A stretch of DNA of 64,000 nucleotides from a bacterium (GTDB lineage Bacteria > Sumerlaeota > Sumerlaeia > SLMS01 > JAHLLQ01). Position numbers and translations under genes: made by a program. Within the stretch, counting starts at the first letter, position 1; every line of letters starts with the position of its first letter. The DNA lies in assembly GCA_020444065.1 (NCBI GenBank), contig JAHLLQ010000001.1:682001-746000 (forward strand), in the 5' to 3' direction. Positions 30,477 through 39,793 of the stretch are shown here, piece by piece. A model generated the notes under the pieces. It was given only the letters and a program-made list of their open reading frames with translations. It was not told the origin of the DNA and ran no database searches.

Positions 30477-33400
30477 TTAGCGCACCAACCACGTCTCCGT
30501 GATCACACCACCGAAGCCGTCCTGAACCGGACCGCGAAGGTCCATGCTCGGGAAGTCGTTGGTGATGACGTTTCCAGTGAGCGGATAGTAAGCCCGCTGC
30601 AGGGACTGGACGGTGAAGGAGGTGTTATGGACGCCGAAGCTTCCGTCCTGGGCGGCCAGGTTATAGTTCCACAGAACTGCCTTCTGTGTATCGGTCAGAG
30701 CGTTGAAGTCCGGCGCGTGAAGCGGTCCGTACTCCTCATCGTAGGTCGTGCCTGGCACGTCCGCGATGAACTCGTCGCGAAGGATCAGCATCAGGCCACG
30801 AACTTCGGTCTGTGTTCCCTCCACGAGACCGTTGCCGTCGTAGTCGCCGTGGGACGGATAGTCGAGAGACTGGATGTCCAGGTGGCAACGCTTACAGGCG
30901 TTCTCGTGGTTGGTAACGTCGTCGCTGAGGTCCTCGGTACCCATCGTGTCACGAAGACTGAAGGTGTGAGAGCCAACAAGCGGCGGTGTGGTGACGCCCG
31001 GGCCTGACTCAGACGGCGGGGCCATGTGGCAGGCAACGCAGGTGTCTTCAACGGCCACGTAGTGCGGTGAGCTGGGAGCCCAATCAAGGCCGAAGGAGAC
31101 TGCGGACGTTCCAATGAGGACTTCGCCCTGCGGTCCGCGGTGCGGGCCGTGAGACTCTGTCGGATAAACGTCATCGGCATCGCCGCGACGCGAGTTGTGG
31201 CAGCGCATGCACAGACCGCCCAGGCCGACGCCGTAGGTGTCGGTCCCGTTCGGGAGTTCCAGGTCGCCTTCGAGACGCAGCTGATGCGGAATGTCGCTGA
31301 AGTGCGGATCGTGGCAGGTCGAGCAGGTCTGGCCGATCGGATTATCGATCGGGTTGGCGGGAAGTCCCTTGACCTGGACGTCGACGAAGCCGTCGCCAGA
31401 GTGGCACTTGATACAGCCGCTACCGGTGGACGCATGGCCCGGGGTAGCCGCACTGTGACCGCTGTTCTCCCACTGCCAGACGAGCTGCTGGTAGCCATTG
31501 TTCGAGTCGTGGCAGCGCGCGCACTGCTCGACGTTCAGGTTCACGCCATCAACACCCTTTTCGTTTCCAGCACGGAGCACGTAGGGGTGAATCTCGCCGG
31601 GACCGTGGCAGTTTTCGCACTGGATCGAGGCGTGGCTCTTGAGTTCTTCGGGCAGATTGTCAAACTGCGGGATGCCCGATGTGACGGCATCATGAACCAT
31701 CTGCGGGATCTGATTGAGGTCGAACTTGATGTCTTCGGCGATGTCGTCGAAGCCATTGTTGTCAGCCAGCGGATTCTGGTCGAAGCCGACACTGTGGCAC
31801 TCGAGGCAGGACACGTCGTAGTGCGAGCCGTATTCGCCATTGAGGTGCTTCTGTAGCTTCTGTGCGTGGTTAGACTGCACCCAGTCGCTCGCAACCTTCA
31901 GGCGATCCTGGCCAGCGCTGTCGCCGTGGCAGAAGCCAGTGGCGCACTCGGGCAGGTGAGCGCCGTCGTCTTCGAAGACGCCTGCGCCCTGCCAGTTGGC
32001 GGCGTAGATGACCTGCTCATAGAGCGTCTCGGACAGGCCCTCGCGGACGTCCGTGTGGATCTCGAGGTGGATCTTGTAAGTGCCCTTCTTGTCTGGACGG
32101 AACGTCACGAAGGTGTTGTCGATCTCGGTCAGTGTGGCAACCGAGTCAGCGGGCGCTTCAGCGATGCTCCACGTGTAGCCGGTGATGGCGCGGTGGACGG
32201 TGCCACCAGCCTCCACGGCGTGCATGTAGATCAGGTTGCCGATACCAACTGTATCGAGGCCAGAAGAGGCTTCGGTGTAGTTGCCGCTCTGATCCAGAGC
32301 GAGGTCACGCGGGGACACACCTTCGATAACGATGTGGGCCAGCGATTCGGGCGCCGGAGTTGGGGTCGCAGTCGGAGTCGGGCTCGGAGTCGGAGTCGGG
32401 GTCGGAGGCAGCGTCGTGGGCTGCACCGGGCCGCGAAGGTCCATCTCGGGATAGTCGTCAGTGATCGGGCGGTTGAAGATGCCGAAGTAGGCACGCTGCA
32501 GTGACTGGACAGCGTAAGACGTGTTGTGAATACCACGGCTGCCGTCGTCGACGACGTAGTTGTAGTTGTAGCGAGCGTACTTGAGACCGTCGGGAAGCGT
32601 GGCGAAGTCGCCTTGGCTGATGCCAATGGTGCCGTCGCTGCCCAGGGAGAACTTCGAACCATGGGTCGGGTCGTTCAACAGACCGTCGGCGATGATCTCG
32701 AGCAGGCCTTCGACTTCGGACTGAATGCCTTCGACCGTGCCGTCGCCATCGTAATCGCCACGAGCTTCACGGTCATAGGTGGTCGCGAGTTCGGAGTGGC
32801 ACTCGCCGCAGGCGTTCACGACGTTGAGCGTGTCGTCGCCTTCGTCGGCTGTGCCATTGGTGTCACGCATCGAGTAGGTGTGCTCACCCACAAGCGGCGG
32901 TGTCAGGCCGCTGCCCACGCCGTCCGCCATGTGGCAGGCAACGCAGGTGTCTTCGACGATCGTCGTGTGGGCCGAGTTTCCAACGAAGTCCAGCCCGAAG
33001 TCCGCGGCGTTCTTGCCGAGCAGCATGTCAGCCTGCGGGCCGTGGTGGGCACCACGGAAGCTGCCGAGCGCCGTCGCGTCCACGTCTTCGACGCGCGAGT
33101 TGTGGCAACGGCCGCAAAGGCCGCCCAGGCCCGGATCTTCGAACGTATCGCCGGAGGGCAGATCGAAGTCGCCGGCCAGGCGAAGCTGATGCGGGTTGTC
33201 CGAGTTATGGGGATCGTGGCAGCCGGTACAGGTCACGCCAAGAGCACCGTGCAGATCGACCGGCGCATCGCCGTCGACCTGGATGTTCTTGAAGCCTTCG
33301 GCTGTGTGACAGGCCGTGCAACTGCCGGTCTCGCCGGCGTGTCCGCCCGCGGCTTCGGCAGAAATCATGTGAGCCGAAGTGCCCCACTGATAGAAGCCCT

Positions 33401-34340
33401 GCTGGTGGCCGGAAGCGGAATCGTGGCACTGTGCGCACTGGCCGAGACCGAAGTCCACGCCGGCGATGCCCGAGTCATCTTCACGGATGTTGCCGAGGTG
33501 CTGAGAACCCGGACCGTGGCAGTTCTCGCACTGAATCGAGCCATGGCCCTGAAGTTCGGCGGGAAGGTCGGCCCAGTGGGGATCGTTGTTGTTGTAGGCA
33601 TCGTTGACCAGGTCCGGAATGTTCGACAGCGGATAGCTGAGCATGTCCGCGATGTCGTCGAAGCCGTTGTTCACGGCCGCCGGGTTCAGATTGAAGCCGA
33701 CGGTGTGACACTCGAGGCACGATTCCGAATAATGGTTGGTTGTCTCGCCGTTCAGGTCCCGCTGGAACTTGACGGCGTGTCCCGATGTGATCCAATCGCC
33801 CAGCTTGTTCAGCCGATCGTTGGCGTTGTCATCGTGACAGCAACTGGTGCCGCAATTGGGGGGATAAGGTGCCGGGGGTTCCCAAGTGTTAAAAACACCT
33901 GCGCCCATCCACTCGCCCGCCCGAATGAGCACATTGACCGATTCGGTCGGGTTTGCGCTCCCGTCCAACGGGGTCAGGGTCACCGTGAAGTCCCCTCGCA
34001 TGTCGGGACGGAAGGTCACCATATCGCCCGTATTGCTGCTCAGGGCAGCGGACGAGCCGACCATGGAGGGCGTCAGGGCCCACTCATAGCCGGAGATTGT
34101 TGCCCCGGAAGCCGGATCGGCCTCCAGGTAGACTAGCTGCCCGATACCGACGATCGGCAGGCCTGAGTAGACCTCCGTGAACTCGTCATCGGGTGCGGCA
34201 GCGATGTCACGCGGCGAAACCGCCAGCAGTTCAATGTCTGCCAACGGTTGCGCGGGGGCTGCGGAAACCAGCAGGCTGCTCAACAGCCCGGCGGCTCCCG
34301 CGGTTACTAGTGCTTGGAGCAAATTCTTGCGGCTTTTCAC
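30477..34340 (-). CDS. Giant internally duplicated multihaem cytochrome c with Ig/PKD-like domains
   Basis: A 1287-residue exported protein (signal about 1-30) made of two homologous halves joined by a Thr/Pro linker (about 640-672). Each half begins with an Ig/PKD-like domain of about 115 residues (SPRDIAAAP..., SPRDLALDQ...; both contain VTFRPDMRG or VTFRPDKKG). Nine haem-like sites follow: first CX4CH (CGTSCCH, CATGFCH), then CLECH, CENCH, CAQCH/CARCH, CTACH/CIKCH, CTGCH/CSTCH, CGRCH/CMRCH, CVACH and CGECH/CKRCH. Each half closes with an EF-hand-like loop (DYDGDGTVEG, DYDGNGLVEG) and an MDLRGPVQ segment. In total that is 16 CXXCH plus two variants. GTG start with a GGAGGG site. It is probably extracellular or surface-exposed. 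I recognise no named homologue. Confidence 0.9.
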   Translation of the reverse strand: MKSRKNLLQALVTAGAAGLLSSLLVSAAPAQPLADIELLAVSPRDIAAAPDDEFTEVYSGLPIVGIGQLVYLEADPASGATISGYEWALTPSMVGSSAALSSNTGDMVTFRPDMRGDFTVTLTPLDGSANPTESVNVLIRAGEWMGAGVFNTWEPPAPYPPNCGTSCCHDDNANDRLNKLGDWITSGHAVKFQRDLNGETTNHYSESCLECHTVGFNLNPAAVNNGFDDIADMLSYPLSNIPDLVNDAYNNNDPHWADLPAELQGHGSIQCENCHGPGSQHLGNIREDDSGIAGVDFGLGQCAQCHDSASGHQQGFYQWGTSAHMISAEAAGGHAGETGSCTACHTAEGFKNIQVDGDAPVDLHGALGVTCTGCHDPHNSDNPHQLRLAGDFDLPSGDTFEDPGLGGLCGRCHNSRVEDVDATALGSFRGAHHGPQADMLLGKNAADFGLDFVGNSAHTTIVEDTCVACHMADGVGSGLTPPLVGEHTYSMRDTNGTADEGDDTLNVVNACGECHSELATTYDREARGDYDGDGTVEGIQSEVEGLLEIIADGLLNDPTHGSKFSLGSDGTIGISQGDFATLPDGLKYARYNYNYVVDDGSRGIHNTSYAVQSLQRAYFGIFNRPITDDYPEMDLRGPVQPTTLPPTPTPTPSPTPTATPTPAPESLAHIVIEGVSPRDLALDQSGNYTEASSGLDTVGIGNLIYMHAVEAGGTVHRAITGYTWSIAEAPADSVATLTEIDNTFVTFRPDKKGTYKIHLEIHTDVREGLSETLYEQVIYAANWQGAGVFEDDGAHLPECATGFCHGDSAGQDRLKVASDWVQSNHAQKLQKHLNGEYGSHYDVSCLECHSVGFDQNPLADNNGFDDIAEDIKFDLNQIPQMVHDAVTSGIPQFDNLPEELKSHASIQCENCHGPGEIHPYVLRAGNEKGVDGVNLNVEQCARCHDSNNGYQQLVWQWENSGHSAATPGHASTGSGCIKCHSGDGFVDVQVKGLPANPIDNPIGQTCSTCHDPHFSDIPHQLRLEGDLELPNGTDTYGVGLGGLCMRCHNSRRGDADDVYPTESHGPHRGPQGEVLIGTSAVSFGLDWAPSSPHYVAVEDTCVACHMAPPSESGPGVTTPPLVGSHTFSLRDTMGTEDLSDDVTNHENACKRCHLDIQSLDYPSHGDYDGNGLVEGTQTEVRGLMLILRDEFIADVPGTTYDEEYGPLHAPDFNALTDTQKAVLWNYNLAAQDGSFGVHNTSFTVQSLQRAYYPLTGNVITNDFPSMDLRGPVQDGFGGVITETWLVR

Positions 34341-34583: not shown

Positions 34584-36065
34584 CTACTCCCCTGTCTCTG
34601 TGCCCGTCCGGGCTGCTTTGCGCTGCTCCTGAATGACTTCCAGGTCGATATTGTGGCGATGAATCATGCGATAGAGTGTGCGACGGTGACAGCCGGCAGC
34701 CTCGGCCGCCCGCGAGATGTTGAAGTTATTGTCGACCAGCAGCGAGATCAGGTACTCGCGCTCGAAGCTGCCAACCATGCGATCCTTGATGTCGAACATC
34801 GAATCGCTGCCGGGATCCTGAGGCTGTGCCCCCGGGATGCCCTGAATATCGCGGACTTCGAGGGGGAGATCGCCGGGTTGAATCTCCGCCGCGCCGGTCA
34901 GTGTGGCCGCATGCTCGACGACGTTCTGAAGCTCGCGCACATTGCCCGGCCAGCGATAGGCTCGCAGTTTCTCGAGCGATTCGACGGAGATATTGATCGA
35001 TGGCAGATGATTGTCGCGGGTGAACTGGCGCAGGAAGTGGTTGGCCAGCAGCGGGACGTCCTCGATGCGGTCGCGCAGCGGAGGCAGATGCAGTGTCACG
35101 ACGTTCAATCGATAGTAGAGATCGCCGCGGAAGGTCTTCTCGCTCACGGCCTCGACAAGATCGCGATTTGTGGCTGCGATCACGCGAACGTTGACATCGA
35201 TTTCCTCTCGCCCGCCGATGCGCCGGAACCGGCGTTCCTGGAGGACGCGAAGCAGCTTGGATTGCAGCGAAATGGGCATTTCGCCGATCTCGTCGAGGAA
35301 GAGCGTGCCCTTGTGGGCAAACTCAAAGAGGCCTTTCTTCTCCGAAATGGCCCCTGTGAAGGCGCCCTTCGTGTAGCCGAACAGCTCGCTTTCCAGTAGA
35401 TTTTCGGGGAGGCTGGCGCAATCGACGGGGACGAAGATCTCGTTCCGGCGCGCGCTGAGGCGGTGAATGGCACGAGCGATGACTTCCTTGCCAGTGCCGC
35501 TTTCGCCGGTCACCAGCACGTTGACGTCGGTCCGCGAGACCTTGCGAACGAGTTCCAGAACGCGCTCCATGGCCGGACTGATGCCGATGATCCCTTGGCG
35601 CCATCCCTTCGATTCCTCATCCTCGGGAACGGGCGTCGCCGCTTCTTCCTGGCTGAACAGGCGGCGGGACAGCGCCTCCTGGATCTTCGTCATCAACTCG
35701 TTCATCGAGAACGGCTTGGTCAGGTAATCGGCCGCGTGGTGTTTCATGGCCTCGACGGCGCTCTCGATCGATCCAAACGCCGTCACGAGAATGACCGGGA
35801 TGTCCTTGTCGAACCGATGGACGGATTCGAGCACTTCCATCCCCGACCCGTTCGGCATCATCAGGTCGGTGATAACCAGATCGGGCCGGAAGTCCGTCAG
35901 AATCGATTCGATGCGGGTCGGATCGTCGGTCGTGACGCACTCGTGACCAGCGCGGCTCAACAGGCGCCGGTAGTTGTTAAGCATCTCGACTTCGTCATCG
36001 ACCACGAGGATGTGAGTCGCGCCGGCCGCGTTCTTTCCGTTGGTTCGATTGCCGTTCTTGTTCAT
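34584..36065 (-). CDS. Sigma-54-dependent response regulator, NtrC family
   Basis: A 493-residue transcription activator. The receiver domain carries ILVVDDEVEML and the phospho-acceptor in LVITDLMMPNGSG. The AAA+ domain has the Walker A GESGTGKEV (about 185), the sigma-54 contact loop GAFTGA (about 236-241) and the second Walker region GTLFLDEIGEM. The C-terminal Fis-type helix-turn-helix reads NISRAAEAAGCHRRTLYRMI. Its ATG overlaps the stop of the histidine kinase gene (ATGA), so the two form one coupled operon. It would activate sigma-54 promoters. A candidate sigma-54 promoter lies before the 9-11-haem cytochrome gene of this window. Downstream is a terminator, then the giant cytochrome gene. 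Confidence 0.95.
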   Translation of the reverse strand: MNKNGNRTNGKNAAGATHILVVDDEVEMLNNYRRLLSRAGHECVTTDDPTRIESILTDFRPDLVITDLMMPNGSGMEVLESVHRFDKDIPVILVTAFGSIESAVEAMKHHAADYLTKPFSMNELMTKIQEALSRRLFSQEEAATPVPEDEESKGWRQGIIGISPAMERVLELVRKVSRTDVNVLVTGESGTGKEVIARAIHRLSARRNEIFVPVDCASLPENLLESELFGYTKGAFTGAISEKKGLFEFAHKGTLFLDEIGEMPISLQSKLLRVLQERRFRRIGGREEIDVNVRVIAATNRDLVEAVSEKTFRGDLYYRLNVVTLHLPPLRDRIEDVPLLANHFLRQFTRDNHLPSINISVESLEKLRAYRWPGNVRELQNVVEHAATLTGAAEIQPGDLPLEVRDIQGIPGAQPQDPGSDSMFDIKDRMVGSFEREYLISLLVDNNFNISRAAEAAGCHRRTLYRMIHRHNIDLEVIQEQRKAARTGTETGE

Positions 36066-37531
36066 TTCCTGGTCTTCCTCACCGGCAGCCATACGGAGAC
36101 TTCACTCCCCTTGCCCGGCTTGCTTCGGACCTCGATCCGTCCGTCGTGCGCTCGCACAAGGCGCTGGCAGACCGCCAGGCCCAGTCCGGTTCCGCCCTTG
36201 TGGAATTTCGTGGAGAAAAACGGCGAGAAGATGCGGCTGACGTCTTCATCCGACATGCCGCACCCGGTGTCGGAAACGCTGAGCAGGACGCCGTCATTCT
36301 GTTCATACGCCGTGATCGTCAGGGTGCCGCCCTGCTCCATGGCGTCACGCGCGTTGAGCACCAGATTCAGCAGGACCTGCTGCAACTGGATCGAATCGCC
36401 CTGAACGGTAGGAAGATCCTGCAGAATCCGAACTTCGGTCTCTATCTCTTCTCTTTTCAATGCTTTACGGACCATCCCAAGCGTTTCTCGGATGATATCG
36501 GGGATCCGCACCTCGGTACGATTCAGCGGCTGGGGACGCGCCATATTAAGCAGGTGGTCGATGATATGCCGCAGCCGACTGGCCTGCGTGTGGACGACCT
36601 CGAAATCTTCGGTCAGCTCCTCTTCGGAGAGACTGCCGATCTCCATATTTATCAGTTCCAGCCGGCCCGTGATGATCCCCAGCGGGTTCTTGATCTCGTG
36701 CGCGACACTGGCGAGCAACTCGCCGAGCACGGCAAGCTTGTCAGCTTGCTGGACTTGGCGCTGCGCCTCCAGGTTCTCCTGGTACTTGAGTTGCAGCAAA
36801 GAAATCAAACGGTTGAAGTTCTCGGCCACTCGCGTCAGCGGGTCCGGGCAGGCAAGCAGGAAGACTTCACACTTGCTGCAGTAGCGGAACTTCGAAATCG
36901 GATCCTTCTCGTCCGCATGATCGGGGCAGAGGGTATTGGGCAATTCCCAACACCGCAGGCTCTCGCCGTTGAAGGCCGGACATTCGGGCCGGGTGCAGTC
37001 CTTCACGTCCTGACATGGCTTAAGGTTATCGTTCGTCAGTCGAAGCCGAAGGATGTTTCCGTTCGGACCTGTCTCGAGATACTGGATGACCTTGCCGACC
37101 AGGTTCTCGACCTCTCGATCGAGCATCTTCACTGCACCCTGGCATCCCTCGTCCGTAGGGACAGGCTCCATCTCTTCGACGATCAGCAGGCTGTTGTCCT
37201 GGGGGTCGCGCATCGGCCACGCGCGAACATGGAAGAAATTCGCGCCATCGAACTCGTGTGGGGCGCGGTAGAATCGCTGTGCCCGAGAGTGGCCACGCAA
37301 GACCTGGCCGACCGGCCAAACGACCCGCTCGGCTCCGTCCGGTGGCATATCCAGAATCTTCCTGTTCTCATCTCGATAGGCCGGATAGGCTTCCCGGCGG
37401 TCGGGCGTGTTGTCCCAGATGACGTTCAGGCGCACATCGAAGATGCGCACGGCACGAGGCTGCGCGCTCCAATAGGCTTGGAGGAGACCAAAGGAATAGT
37501 TTTCTCTAATCGAGGGGTCGATTGTTGCCAT
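36062..37531 (-). CDS. Soluble sensor histidine kinase with cysteine-rich domain
   Basis: A 489-residue kinase without evident membrane helices. The N-terminal part (about 12-115) is PAS-like (AVRIFDVRLNVIWDN, and FHVRAWPMRDPQDNSLLIVE). Next is a cysteine cluster (about 174-230): CQDVKDCTRPEC, CWELPNTLC, YCSKCEVFLLAC. This resembles the Cys-Trp-containing metal or redox-binding segments of delta-proteobacterial sensors. HisKA follows with SVAHEIKNPLGI, then N-box LLNLVLNARDAME and ATP motifs DTGCGMSDED and GGTGLGLAVCQRLV. The cluster may bind iron-sulfur or another metal and sense redox state. It is coupled to the downstream NtrC-type regulator. ATG chosen over a GTG 33 bases upstream. Confidence 0.92.
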   Translation of the reverse strand: MATIDPSIRENYSFGLLQAYWSAQPRAVRIFDVRLNVIWDNTPDRREAYPAYRDENRKILDMPPDGAERVVWPVGQVLRGHSRAQRFYRAPHEFDGANFFHVRAWPMRDPQDNSLLIVEEMEPVPTDEGCQGAVKMLDREVENLVGKVIQYLETGPNGNILRLRLTNDNLKPCQDVKDCTRPECPAFNGESLRCWELPNTLCPDHADEKDPISKFRYCSKCEVFLLACPDPLTRVAENFNRLISLLQLKYQENLEAQRQVQQADKLAVLGELLASVAHEIKNPLGIITGRLELINMEIGSLSEEELTEDFEVVHTQASRLRHIIDHLLNMARPQPLNRTEVRIPDIIRETLGMVRKALKREEIETEVRILQDLPTVQGDSIQLQQVLLNLVLNARDAMEQGGTLTITAYEQNDGVLLSVSDTGCGMSDEDVSRIFSPFFSTKFHKGGTGLGLAVCQRLVRAHDGRIEVRSKPGKGSEVSVWLPVRKTRK

Positions 37532-37867
37532 CGTTATCCGGGAACCCAGCGCGGGCAGAGCCACCTATGCTTCAGTGCGTATATTACCAAGTAGGCGGCG
37601 AATGCAAGCGCAAGTCAGTGTGACATCGTTGCCTCGCTGTTGCTCCTTGCGCATATCACGATATTTATCCTCCGGATTGTCCGAACTGGAGTCAAGGGAA
37701 GCGTTCCAAAAAGTGGGACAGAGATGTCACTGTAGGCGGAACCGTGGGCGACTCGAATGGCACGGGGTAACGGGAACCTCATCATATACGAAGACGAAAG
37801 GCACTTGCGCTCGGGGGGGGAGTCTTGTCAGCGTGTGGGATTGGATGAGAAAGGAAGAAGACGTAAT
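37532..37867. other. Divergent intergenic region, kinase operon versus CARF gene
   Basis: About 335 bases separating divergent genes. It contains the right copy of the CCAAAAAGTG motif and a run of eight G residues (37813-37820) 48 bases before the CARF gene start. I see no convincing promoter pair. An in-frame GTG extension of the CARF gene reaches into it but has no family similarity. Confidence 0.5.
37706..37721 (+). repeat. CCAAAAAGTGGGACAG motif, right copy
   Basis: It differs by one base from the copy beyond the other end of the kinase-regulator operon. Both lie on the same strand and in non-coding DNA. It could be a regulator site or part of a dispersed short repeat. Confidence 0.45.
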
Positions 37868-39271
37868 ATGGCAAAGAAGCAAACTGGCCGCTCCAAGGCC
37901 GATGGCACAGCCCACCTGGTCTCGATCGGAACCTCTTTCAGCGCACCGCGCGAGGGCGATCTGGTAGATACGCTGATCGCGGATATCAAGTCGATGAAGC
38001 CGGAGCGCCTGGGTGTGCTGGCGACGGCCGATAGCCACGACAATGCGGAGCGCCTGATCAAGGGCGTCGGAATCAATCGTCGGCGAACAGAGATTATTGA
38101 GCTGGAGAGCGCCCAGAGCCTGAACGAGGCATACACGGCGACCAGCGCCTATATTAATCGACTGGAAGAATTGGGCTACGACGCTGGGCACCTCGTTGTG
38201 CATTACACGGCAGGAACAAAGGTCATGGCGTCGGGCATGGTGCTGGCCGCGGCCAGCAGCGGGTGCCAGTCGCTGCGTTACCTGTATTCGCGTGGCCCGG
38301 GGGCGGGTTCGGAGCCGGTGATCACAACTGCAAAGGCCGTTCGCGCCGAGGGCGATCTGCGCATGGCGCGAATGCTGATGCGCGAGTTGCGTTTCCGCGC
38401 CGCCTCGGAGATTCTGCAGCGCTTCGATCCGGAGCTTCTGACGAAGGACGATGCGAATCTCTACCGGGCACTGACCGATCTGGCGCCGGGTTATGCGGCT
38501 TGGGACAACTTCCGCGTTCGCACGTTCCTGCGGCACTATCGCGCGGCTCGGACAAAGGGCCGGGCAGCGGGTGAATTTGAGCTCTCTCAAGAAGCGATTG
38601 GTGCGCTGGACAAGGTCGCTCGAGTAGAACAGTCGGTCGGCGTTTATCCGGTCGAGCTGATTTTCGATCTCTACAATAACGCGATCCGCCGGTTGATGGA
38701 ACGTCGCACTGATGATGCACTGACGCGCCTTTACCGTGCTGCAGAATTGTTCGCCCAGAACGTTCTGCTGGCGCATCACAAGATTCGGACAGACGATGTG
38801 GACATCCGCAAGGTGCCCCCGCGCGACCGCGTGGTCTTCGAGGCTCTGCGCCGAATGGATGACGTAAAGATCAAGCTGGGCTTGCGGAAATCGTACGAAC
38901 TGCTCGCGATCCTGGATAATCCCGTGGGCAACGCATTCATCAAGAATCAGCGTTTGAGCGAGGTGCTGCAGGAGCGACGCCATCTTGTGCTGGCGCACGG
39001 CACGAAGCCTGCTCCCACCAAGGTTGCCCTGGACATGATCGACCAGATGAAGGGGCTGTTGAAGCTGGAGATCAAGGACTTCGACGATCGAGCAGCCTTG
39101 CAGCAGTTCCCCTGGATCGACAATGAAAGCGTTCTGGCTCGCCTGCGCACGACGCGCAACGAGCAGGAACCGGTTCCAAGCGATGTAGAGGAGGCGGGGC
39201 GGCGCCGGGCGAGGCGTGCAGGAGGCCGAAGAGGCTCGGCAAGGGGTCGGAAGTCACCCAAAAGAGGCTAG
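37868..39271 (+). CDS. CARF-HEPN protein, TIGR02710/Csm6-like, without CRISPR neighbours
   Basis: A 467-residue protein. The N-terminal Rossmann-like part starts AHLVSIGTSFSAPREGDLVD and contains HLVVHYTAGTKVMASGMVLA. The latter corresponds to the (D/H)YTGGTK-MS motif of TIGR02710 CARF proteins, which bind cyclic oligoadenylate. The C-terminal helical half has RRHLVLAHGTKPA (about 369-381), the R-x4-6-H pattern of HEPN ribonucleases. A basic tail (about 445-467, many Arg) ends the protein. A cyclic-nucleotide-activated RNase is inferred. No cas gene or repeat array lies in the window. The ATG giving MAKKQTG has an AGGAAGA site. A cupin gene follows in the same direction, 12 bases on. Confidence 0.75.
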   Translation: MAKKQTGRSKADGTAHLVSIGTSFSAPREGDLVDTLIADIKSMKPERLGVLATADSHDNAERLIKGVGINRRRTEIIELESAQSLNEAYTATSAYINRLEELGYDAGHLVVHYTAGTKVMASGMVLAAASSGCQSLRYLYSRGPGAGSEPVITTAKAVRAEGDLRMARMLMRELRFRAASEILQRFDPELLTKDDANLYRALTDLAPGYAAWDNFRVRTFLRHYRAARTKGRAAGEFELSQEAIGALDKVARVEQSVGVYPVELIFDLYNNAIRRLMERRTDDALTRLYRAAELFAQNVLLAHHKIRTDDVDIRKVPPRDRVVFEALRRMDDVKIKLGLRKSYELLAILDNPVGNAFIKNQRLSEVLQERRHLVLAHGTKPAPTKVALDMIDQMKGLLKLEIKDFDDRAALQQFPWIDNESVLARLRTTRNEQEPVPSDVEEAGRRRARRAGGRRGSARGRKSPKRG

Positions 39272-39283
39272 AGACAGGCAAAG

Positions 39284-39793
39284 GTGCTCCGATTGTCAGC
39301 AGAGGAAGTCATCAAGACACTCCAGCTGATCCCGCATCCGGAAGGCGGGTTCTATCGGGAGATCTTTCGTTCCGACGTGCGCGTGCAACACCCGAATGTG
39401 CCGCCGGGCGAGGAACGAGAGCGCGCAGCCAGCACGCTGATCTACTTCCTGCTGGAAGCGAAGGACTTCTCGGCGTTCCATCGAGTGCGGTCTGAGGAGA
39501 CATGGCACCTCTACGGCGGCGGACCATTGGAACTGCACCTGATTCACCAGCATGGTGAATATGAGCAGCGGATCCTGCGTCGGGACCTGGGCGCCGGATT
39601 CTCGCCTCAGACAACAGTCGACGCAAATGTCTGGCAGGCAGCGTGCCCCGCTCCCAATGTGGAGTGGGTTCTGTGCGGCTGCACGGTTGCACCGGGATTT
39701 GAGTTTGCCGATTTCTCGATGGCGAGCCGGAAGGAACTGACGCTCAGCTATCCGGAGTGCCAAGAGATCATCAACCGATTCACGCGGGAATGA
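39284..39793 (+). CDS. Cupin, DUF985 family
   Basis: A 169-residue single-domain cupin. Family signs are IPHPEGGFYREIFRSD at the N-terminus, STLIYFLLEAKDFSAFHRVR, EETWHLYGGGPLELHLI and CTVAPGFEFADFSMASRKEL near the C-terminus. Related structures (yeast YML079w type) have a jelly-roll pocket, but the reaction is unknown. The GTG start lies 12 bases after the CARF-HEPN gene, so the two are probably cotranscribed. Whether that link is functional is unknown. A terminator follows. Confidence 0.88.
   Translation: MLRLSAEEVIKTLQLIPHPEGGFYREIFRSDVRVQHPNVPPGEERERAASTLIYFLLEAKDFSAFHRVRSEETWHLYGGGPLELHLIHQHGEYEQRILRRDLGAGFSPQTTVDANVWQAACPAPNVEWVLCGCTVAPGFEFADFSMASRKELTLSYPECQEIINRFTRE

Follow-up and report, generated by a model that had tools for sequence, protein, structure and literature searches.

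A chromosomal CARF-HEPN protein of the TIGR02710 family in Sumerlaeota, mostly apart from Cas10 and possibly domesticated from type III CRISPR

Results

In type III CRISPR systems, CARF-HEPN RNases are regarded as the part that fires. The stretch of DNA analyzed here (64,000 nucleotides of contig JAHLLQ010000001.1 from a member of the Sumerlaeota, assembly GCA_020444065.1; henceforth the window) carries a gene for a predicted protein of this kind without any CRISPR linkage. The features of the locus, in window coordinates, are listed below.

37868-39271, forward strand: CARF-HEPN protein gene of the TIGR02710 family, CRISPR-unlinked (467 amino acids; reading frame and profile matches)
37851-37857, forward strand: AAGGAAG, purine-rich candidate ribosome-binding site upstream of the ATG at 37868 (sequence)
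37904-38335, forward strand: CARF domain, residues about 13-156, Rossmann-like (AlphaFold model and structure matches)
38213-38221, forward strand: G116-T117-K118, CARF strand-4 motif (K118 aligns with K137 of Thermus thermophilus Csm6)
38336-38647, forward strand: helical linker region (weak Csm6_6H match below the cut-off; AlphaFold model)
38651-39118, forward strand: HEPN domain region, residues about 262-417 (PF09670 match at 263-385; structure match)
38975-38998, forward strand: catalytic motif R370-x6-H377, with Arg at residue 371, where CRISPR-linked relatives have Asn (alignments)
39119-39268, forward strand: C-terminal tail, Arg/Lys-rich here and in several related sequences (alignment)
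39284-39793, forward strand: DUF985 cupin gene, directly downstream, a non-conserved neighbour (Cupin_5/DUF985 match, E 6e-51)

The 467-residue protein is matched by TIGR02710 of NCBIfam at 134.7 bits (E 3.8e-39; cut-off 83.9), by PF09670, the Csm6 HEPN family, at 81.4 bits (E 7.7e-23; cut-off 27) and by the PADLOC model CARF1--CARF_HEPN with E 3.3e-58. These profiles, together with the predicted fold, bear out the original prediction, made from the sequence alone, of a TIGR02710-like CARF-HEPN protein. The stretch of the CARF part that had been taken for a ligand motif is present at residues 113-127 (YTAGTKVMASGMVLA) and contains the GTK strand-4 motif by which Csm6/Csx1 RNases are recognized, and the proposed R-x4-6-H HEPN site is found as R370-x6-H377. 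Pfam and NCBIfam scans returned the HEPN and whole-protein TIGR02710 matches only, and neither an AAA+ nor a helix-turn-helix (HTH) domain.

An AlphaFold model with 27 sequences as input reached a mean predicted local distance difference test score (pLDDT) of 87.6 and a predicted template modelling score (pTM) of 0.76. The best solved folds retrieved with Foldseek are chains of T. thermophilus Csm6 (TtCsm6; E 5.8e-13), and VIA-align superposes the model on cA4-bound TtCsm6 (cA4, cyclic tetra-adenylate) over nearly the whole length (Z 17.5, 371 residues aligned, root-mean-square deviation 5.6, 19% identity). Taken alone, the CARF half of the model also matches Csm6, Cam1, Can2 and Card1 as well as ring nucleases. 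A CARF fold, the lack of which in a predicted structure had been set beforehand as a refuting test, is thus present in both comparisons. At the sequence level, a phmmer search of the PDB with the single protein gave weak, unrelated matches only, whereas the family profile reached TtCsm6 at E 2.4e-9.

Residue correspondences, counted by hand from the family-profile alignment, equate K118, E293, R370 and H377 with K137, E332, R415 and H422 of TtCsm6. In that enzyme, K137A leads to loss of cA4 binding, RNase activity is abolished by each of R415A, N416A and H422A, and E332 restrains R415 as long as cA4 is not bound (PMC10897365). Conservation was assessed in a 27-row alignment, A2, which was built without G008 (at a contig end and lacking the HEPN part; also left out of the homologue alignment and the gene tree), L081-L083 (incomplete, or containing stop codons or masked segments) and G035 (not returned by the scan of 84,980 species); the G011 homologue is an open frame without the CARF part. 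R370, E293 and H377 are found without exception in the 27 rows, and each of the 26 rows covering the GTK motif keeps it, K118 included. Replacement of the HEPN Arg or His, the second possible refutation named in advance, was looked for in homologues, and both residues are kept in all 20 that reach the region.

Position 371, equivalent to TtCsm6 N416, behaves differently. None of 20 Sumerlaeota sequences has Asn here (the 19 Sumerlaeota rows of A2 carry R in 11, S in 4, G in 2, T in 1 and D in 1), whereas Asn stands in all eight Syntrophaceae-type rows and in all three of the plasmid members examined. The residue after the HEPN catalytic Arg is described as typically, not always, polar (N, D or H; PMC3710099). 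Judged from these alignments, the Sumerlaeota clade is marked by a uniform HEPN-site change, with the predicted catalytic core retained. The clade also has a QFxW motif of its own, with Q413 and W416 in every one of the 19 Sumerlaeota rows and in none of the other 8. The tail that follows QFxW is 38-51 residues long and Lys/Arg-rich in the genome under study and in four of six members of the same order (L036, L037, L038 and L040); it measures 3-21 residues in the remaining rows.

No cas gene was matched when 10 window neighbours were compared with PADLOC, in which four of the 10 have matches, all via response-regulator, AAA+, kinase or protease parts. Nor does the window contain a CRISPR-like array, by a scan that does detect arrays at a control locus, L075. 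In the whole genome (5.2 Mb, 97% complete) there is no match to the Cas10 palm2 domain (PF22335), to Cas1 or to repeat-associated mysterious proteins (RAMP), and none to SMODS or mCpol cyclases; GGDEF cyclases were not searched there. The claims that no cas genes, array or nucleotide cyclase lie nearby agree with these results, as does the examination of the rest of the genome for type III CRISPR that had been proposed as a check. The gene is thus not encoded with Cas10, as a type III ancillary effector would be, and the CRISPR association implied by its family name does not hold in this genome.

Its neighbours encode a sensor kinase, a sigma-54 response regulator, a multihaem cytochrome, the cupin, two trypsin-like proteases and a class II (threonyl-type) tRNA synthetase; the locus is no defence island. 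The response regulator (34584-36092) gave a strong match to the PADLOC RtcR_PspF CARF models, of the RtcR-like CARF_AAA_HTH type, through its AAA+ part, a false lead, since Pfam finds a receiver domain and no CARF. The cytochrome (30477-34340) has 1287 amino acids, with halves that resemble a repeat of each other and MtrC/MtrF-like matches. The DUF985 cupin, correctly named as the neighbour beforehand, is uninformative, because nothing related to it turned up at the other 19 loci compared.

Comparison of 20 loci gave no neighbour family common to the phylum. Most widely shared is a histone-deacetylase-like gene, present at six of the 20 loci, all in family f13 (6/7 f13 loci); a MurC-like ligase adjoins at four, likewise all in f13 (4/7), and f2 loci have other neighbours in common, at no more than four loci each. 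At f13 loci, including L046, L049, L050 and L043, the CARF-HEPN gene with its histone-deacetylase-like or MurC-like neighbours forms a locally stable arrangement. Ten homologue neighbours analyzed with Pfam comprise isocitrate dehydrogenase, a MurC-like ligase, a histone-deacetylase-like protein, an isopentenyl-pyrophosphate transferase, a pyridoxal-phosphate decarboxylase, RuvX, two weak tetratricopeptide-repeat matches, an HTH protein and one protein without a match. The surroundings of the homologues are varied and mostly housekeeping; small genes may be missed among them, as the gene-caller is a home-made codon score.

A homologue is present in 21 of 40 Sumerlaeota genomes, one gene each (12/20 among those at least 90% complete). 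A TIGR02710 search of the 40 genomes retrieved the identical 21 carriers, 20 of them over the family cut-off; it further gave a second location, below threshold, in G029 and broke the gene of G007 into two pieces. Scanning 84,980 species yielded 29 loci, 18 of Sumerlaeota type and 11 others, the latter mostly in Syntrophaceae or Smithella and other deltaproteobacteria; one of the 11, L075, adjoins a cas1-like gene (read by eye) and CRISPR-like repeats (detected by script). No homologue was found in phages. Plasmids gave six records, all named TIGR02710, that align with part of the query at 26-40% identity; three were examined in detail. On a Rubrobacter radiotolerans plasmid (L108, 7938-9167), the TIGR02710 protein lies beside cas7d/Csc2 and cas6 genes, and its CARF may bind something else, because GGTTPM replaces GTK.

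PF22335 matches occur in 10 of the 40 Sumerlaeota genomes before sorting. Those in G016, G023 and G027 and one in G005 were not counted as Cas10, because Pfam and NCBIfam identify them as GGDEF diguanylate cyclases. In two of these genomes, FHA-GGDEF proteins (L030 in G027, L031 in G023) cross-match Cas10 palm2 at 24-28 bits, which calls for caution in Cas10 surveys that use PF22335. After sorting, Cas10 or a Cas10-like protein is found in 3 of 21 carriers (G026, G033, G029) versus 4 of 19 non-carriers (G004, G005, G014, G018; p 0.69), with G005, G014, G018 and a second G033 match assigned on PF22335 at 94 bits or more alone and G004 counted on part of a Csm1 at the beginning of a contig (L029). 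The G029 protein (L028, 628-2157; 510 amino acids), counted as Cas10-like, matches Cas10 palm2 just over the cut-off (29.4 bits) and Cmr2 weakly; its sequence gives no clear Cmr2/Csm1 assignment, and it is possibly a divergent cyclase. All 11 genomes of non-Sumerlaeota relatives, on the other hand, have a strong Cas10 match, a difference from the 3 of 21 carriers with Fisher p 2.8e-6 if kinship among the genomes is ignored.

Cas1 is recognized in 12 of the 21 carriers and not in the other nine, which include the genome under study; in the single-contig genome G035 (96% complete), Cas1 and the CARF-HEPN gene are separated by about 1.2 Mb, and Cas10 has no match. SMODS cyclases are absent from all 40 genomes, a result that leaves aside CD-NTases outside the SMODS profile, so that no linked CD-NTase of the kind that defines effectors of the cyclic-oligonucleotide-based antiphage signalling system (CBASS) was found. 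mCpol matched in two of the 40, both times on Cas10 loci (G014, G033).

In a maximum-likelihood gene tree of 31 rows (without L078, L081, L083 and G008), 20 Sumerlaeota sequences group together (99/98), and the sequence under study with f2 (100/100) and f13 (100/99) form clades. Both clades recur in an rpoB tree of 19 rows (100/100 and 99/95), from which G022 and G023 (no rpoB match) and G010 (pieces only) are missing. The two trees are largely in agreement, with one supported conflict inside f2: G027 goes with G025/G026 in the gene tree (95/91) and with G021 in the rpoB tree (95/92). The root of the gene tree is unsure, given long outgroup branches. The ratio of nonsynonymous to synonymous substitution rates (dN/dS) for the whole gene is 0.129 for G022-G021 and 0.115 for G025-G026, congeneric pairs with unsaturated dS, and 0.08 for the C-terminal region in both; whole-gene dS is saturated in two other pairs.

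Discussion

Family, fold, conserved residues, purifying selection, phylogeny and the absence of a recognized Cas10 from most carriers are the grounds on which we favour, with a probability of roughly 0.6, a ligand-gated CARF-HEPN RNase that derives by domestication from type III CRISPR and belongs to a CRISPR-independent, vertically inherited TIGR02710/Csx1-Csm6 branch. From these data we infer a possible mode of action. The protein would be a homodimer whose paired CARF domains use the GTK motif to bind an oligonucleotide of adenylate type, either cyclic or short. Closure of the CARF pair would shift the helical linker and, within the paired HEPN domains, release R370 from E293; the HEPN pair would then cleave single-stranded RNA and so may slow or arrest growth under stress or phage attack. 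The ligand would likely come from a chromosomal enzyme not yet recognized as a messenger synthase, or be a breakdown product of cellular RNA.

Several observations weigh against domestication as an RNase. The residue equivalent to N416 is replaced throughout the Sumerlaeota, which counts because N416A abolishes RNase activity in TtCsm6 (PMC10897365). No messenger synthase that could supply a ligand was recognized in the Cas10, SMODS and mCpol searches. Nineteen of the 40 genomes, among them the four remaining members of its own family, lack the gene, which is therefore not essential, and most carriers are incomplete draft genomes. Of the non-CRISPR defence or stress role originally suggested, the non-CRISPR part gains indirect support from conservation across Sumerlaeota mostly without Cas10, a support that does not extend to defence or stress or to the predicted RNase activity and its activation by a cyclic oligonucleotide.

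A more specific proposal, which we advance tentatively and consider rather less probable, is a second-messenger or RNA-ligand pathway of the Sumerlaeota in which a captured CRISPR receptor, its ligand site intact and its HEPN site remodelled, would answer a synthase that is related neither to Cas10 or mCpol nor to SMODS-type CD-NTases.

Among the alternatives, a shared receiver of cyclic oligoadenylates (cOA), responding to type III systems gained and lost in these lineages or to a Cas10 missed in drafts, would accommodate the three carriers with Cas10 or a Cas10-like protein, the retention of the CARF residues that TtCsm6 needs to bind cA4 and the incompleteness of the draft genomes. We regard it as unlikely, however: carriage does not track Cas10, neither the genome under study nor G035, at 97% and 96% completeness, has a Cas10 match, and none of the identified neighbours is a cas gene. 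Somewhat more doubtful is a sensor of RNA ends resembling the CARF of RtcR, which would detect the ends of cellular RNAs, such as those of tRNA fragments, and amplify an RNA-damage response via HEPN cleavage. The lack of a recognized messenger synthase agrees with it, and so do the widely differing neighbours, as expected for a self-contained gene; the GTK motif, however, is retained in every sequence covering the region. Least probable is a CRISPR effector that no longer cuts RNA and is retained for RNA binding or as a ring nuclease, a fate suggested by the loss of the Asn after the catalytic Arg (replaced in 20/20, present in 11/11 examined relatives of other phyla) and by the description of VC1899 as an orphan CARF protein 'cast adrift' (PMC7969007), but opposed by the invariant catalytic Arg, His and Glu, by the low dN/dS of the C-terminal region in both unsaturated pairs and by the persistence here of key cA4-binding residues that VC1899 has lost (PMC7969007).

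If the protein is indeed a domesticated RNase, a branch that is under purifying selection in much of the phylum, has retained its ligand residues and mostly occurs without Cas10 points either to a new source of cyclic-oligonucleotide-like signals or to a new CARF ligand, and could show how CRISPR parts turn into chromosomal genes. An orphan CARF nuclease as such is not new, since comparable cases have been described: most CARF families lie near cas genes, with DET1451, MA0186 and RtcR-like proteins as exceptions (Makarova et al. 2014, PMC4012209), CARF homologues outside CRISPR-Cas are called abundant in a 2025 classification (PMC12669027), standalone CARF-nuclease genes are mentioned in PMC3710099, and VC1899 is itself an example (PMC7969007). 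The word CRISPR is absent from the main text of a paper on Sumerlaeota (PMC8092238), and we found no published account, in the open-licence literature, of a phylum-wide, vertically kept TIGR02710 branch mostly without Cas10.

Among known systems, the type III members of TIGR02710/PF09670, such as those from Thermomicrobium roseum (TRD_RS09775) and Synechocystis 7339 (IQE94_RS17995), share the family profile, the CARF-then-HEPN order, GTK and Arg-x6-His with the protein described here. They are encoded in plasmid cmr/cas10 operons, however, and have Asn after the Arg, whereas the present gene is chromosomal, unlinked to cas genes and without this Asn. TtCsm6 (5FSH, 8JH1), a cA4-activated RNase, is the closest solved fold and has equivalents of the four residues K137, E332, R415 and H422; it differs in sequence (about 19% identity) and in its N416, replaced here, and the genome under study has no Cas10. 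RtcR likewise uses a CARF domain outside CRISPR (PMC7790460; PMC4012209), but combines a divergent CARF with an AAA+ ATPase and an HTH domain and has no HEPN. VC1899 of Vibrio cholerae, finally, is also an orphan CARF nuclease apart from type III CRISPR (PMC7969007); in contrast to the Sumerlaeota protein, it has a PD-(D/E)xK-like nuclease domain and has lost ligand-site residues, the key ones of which are kept here.
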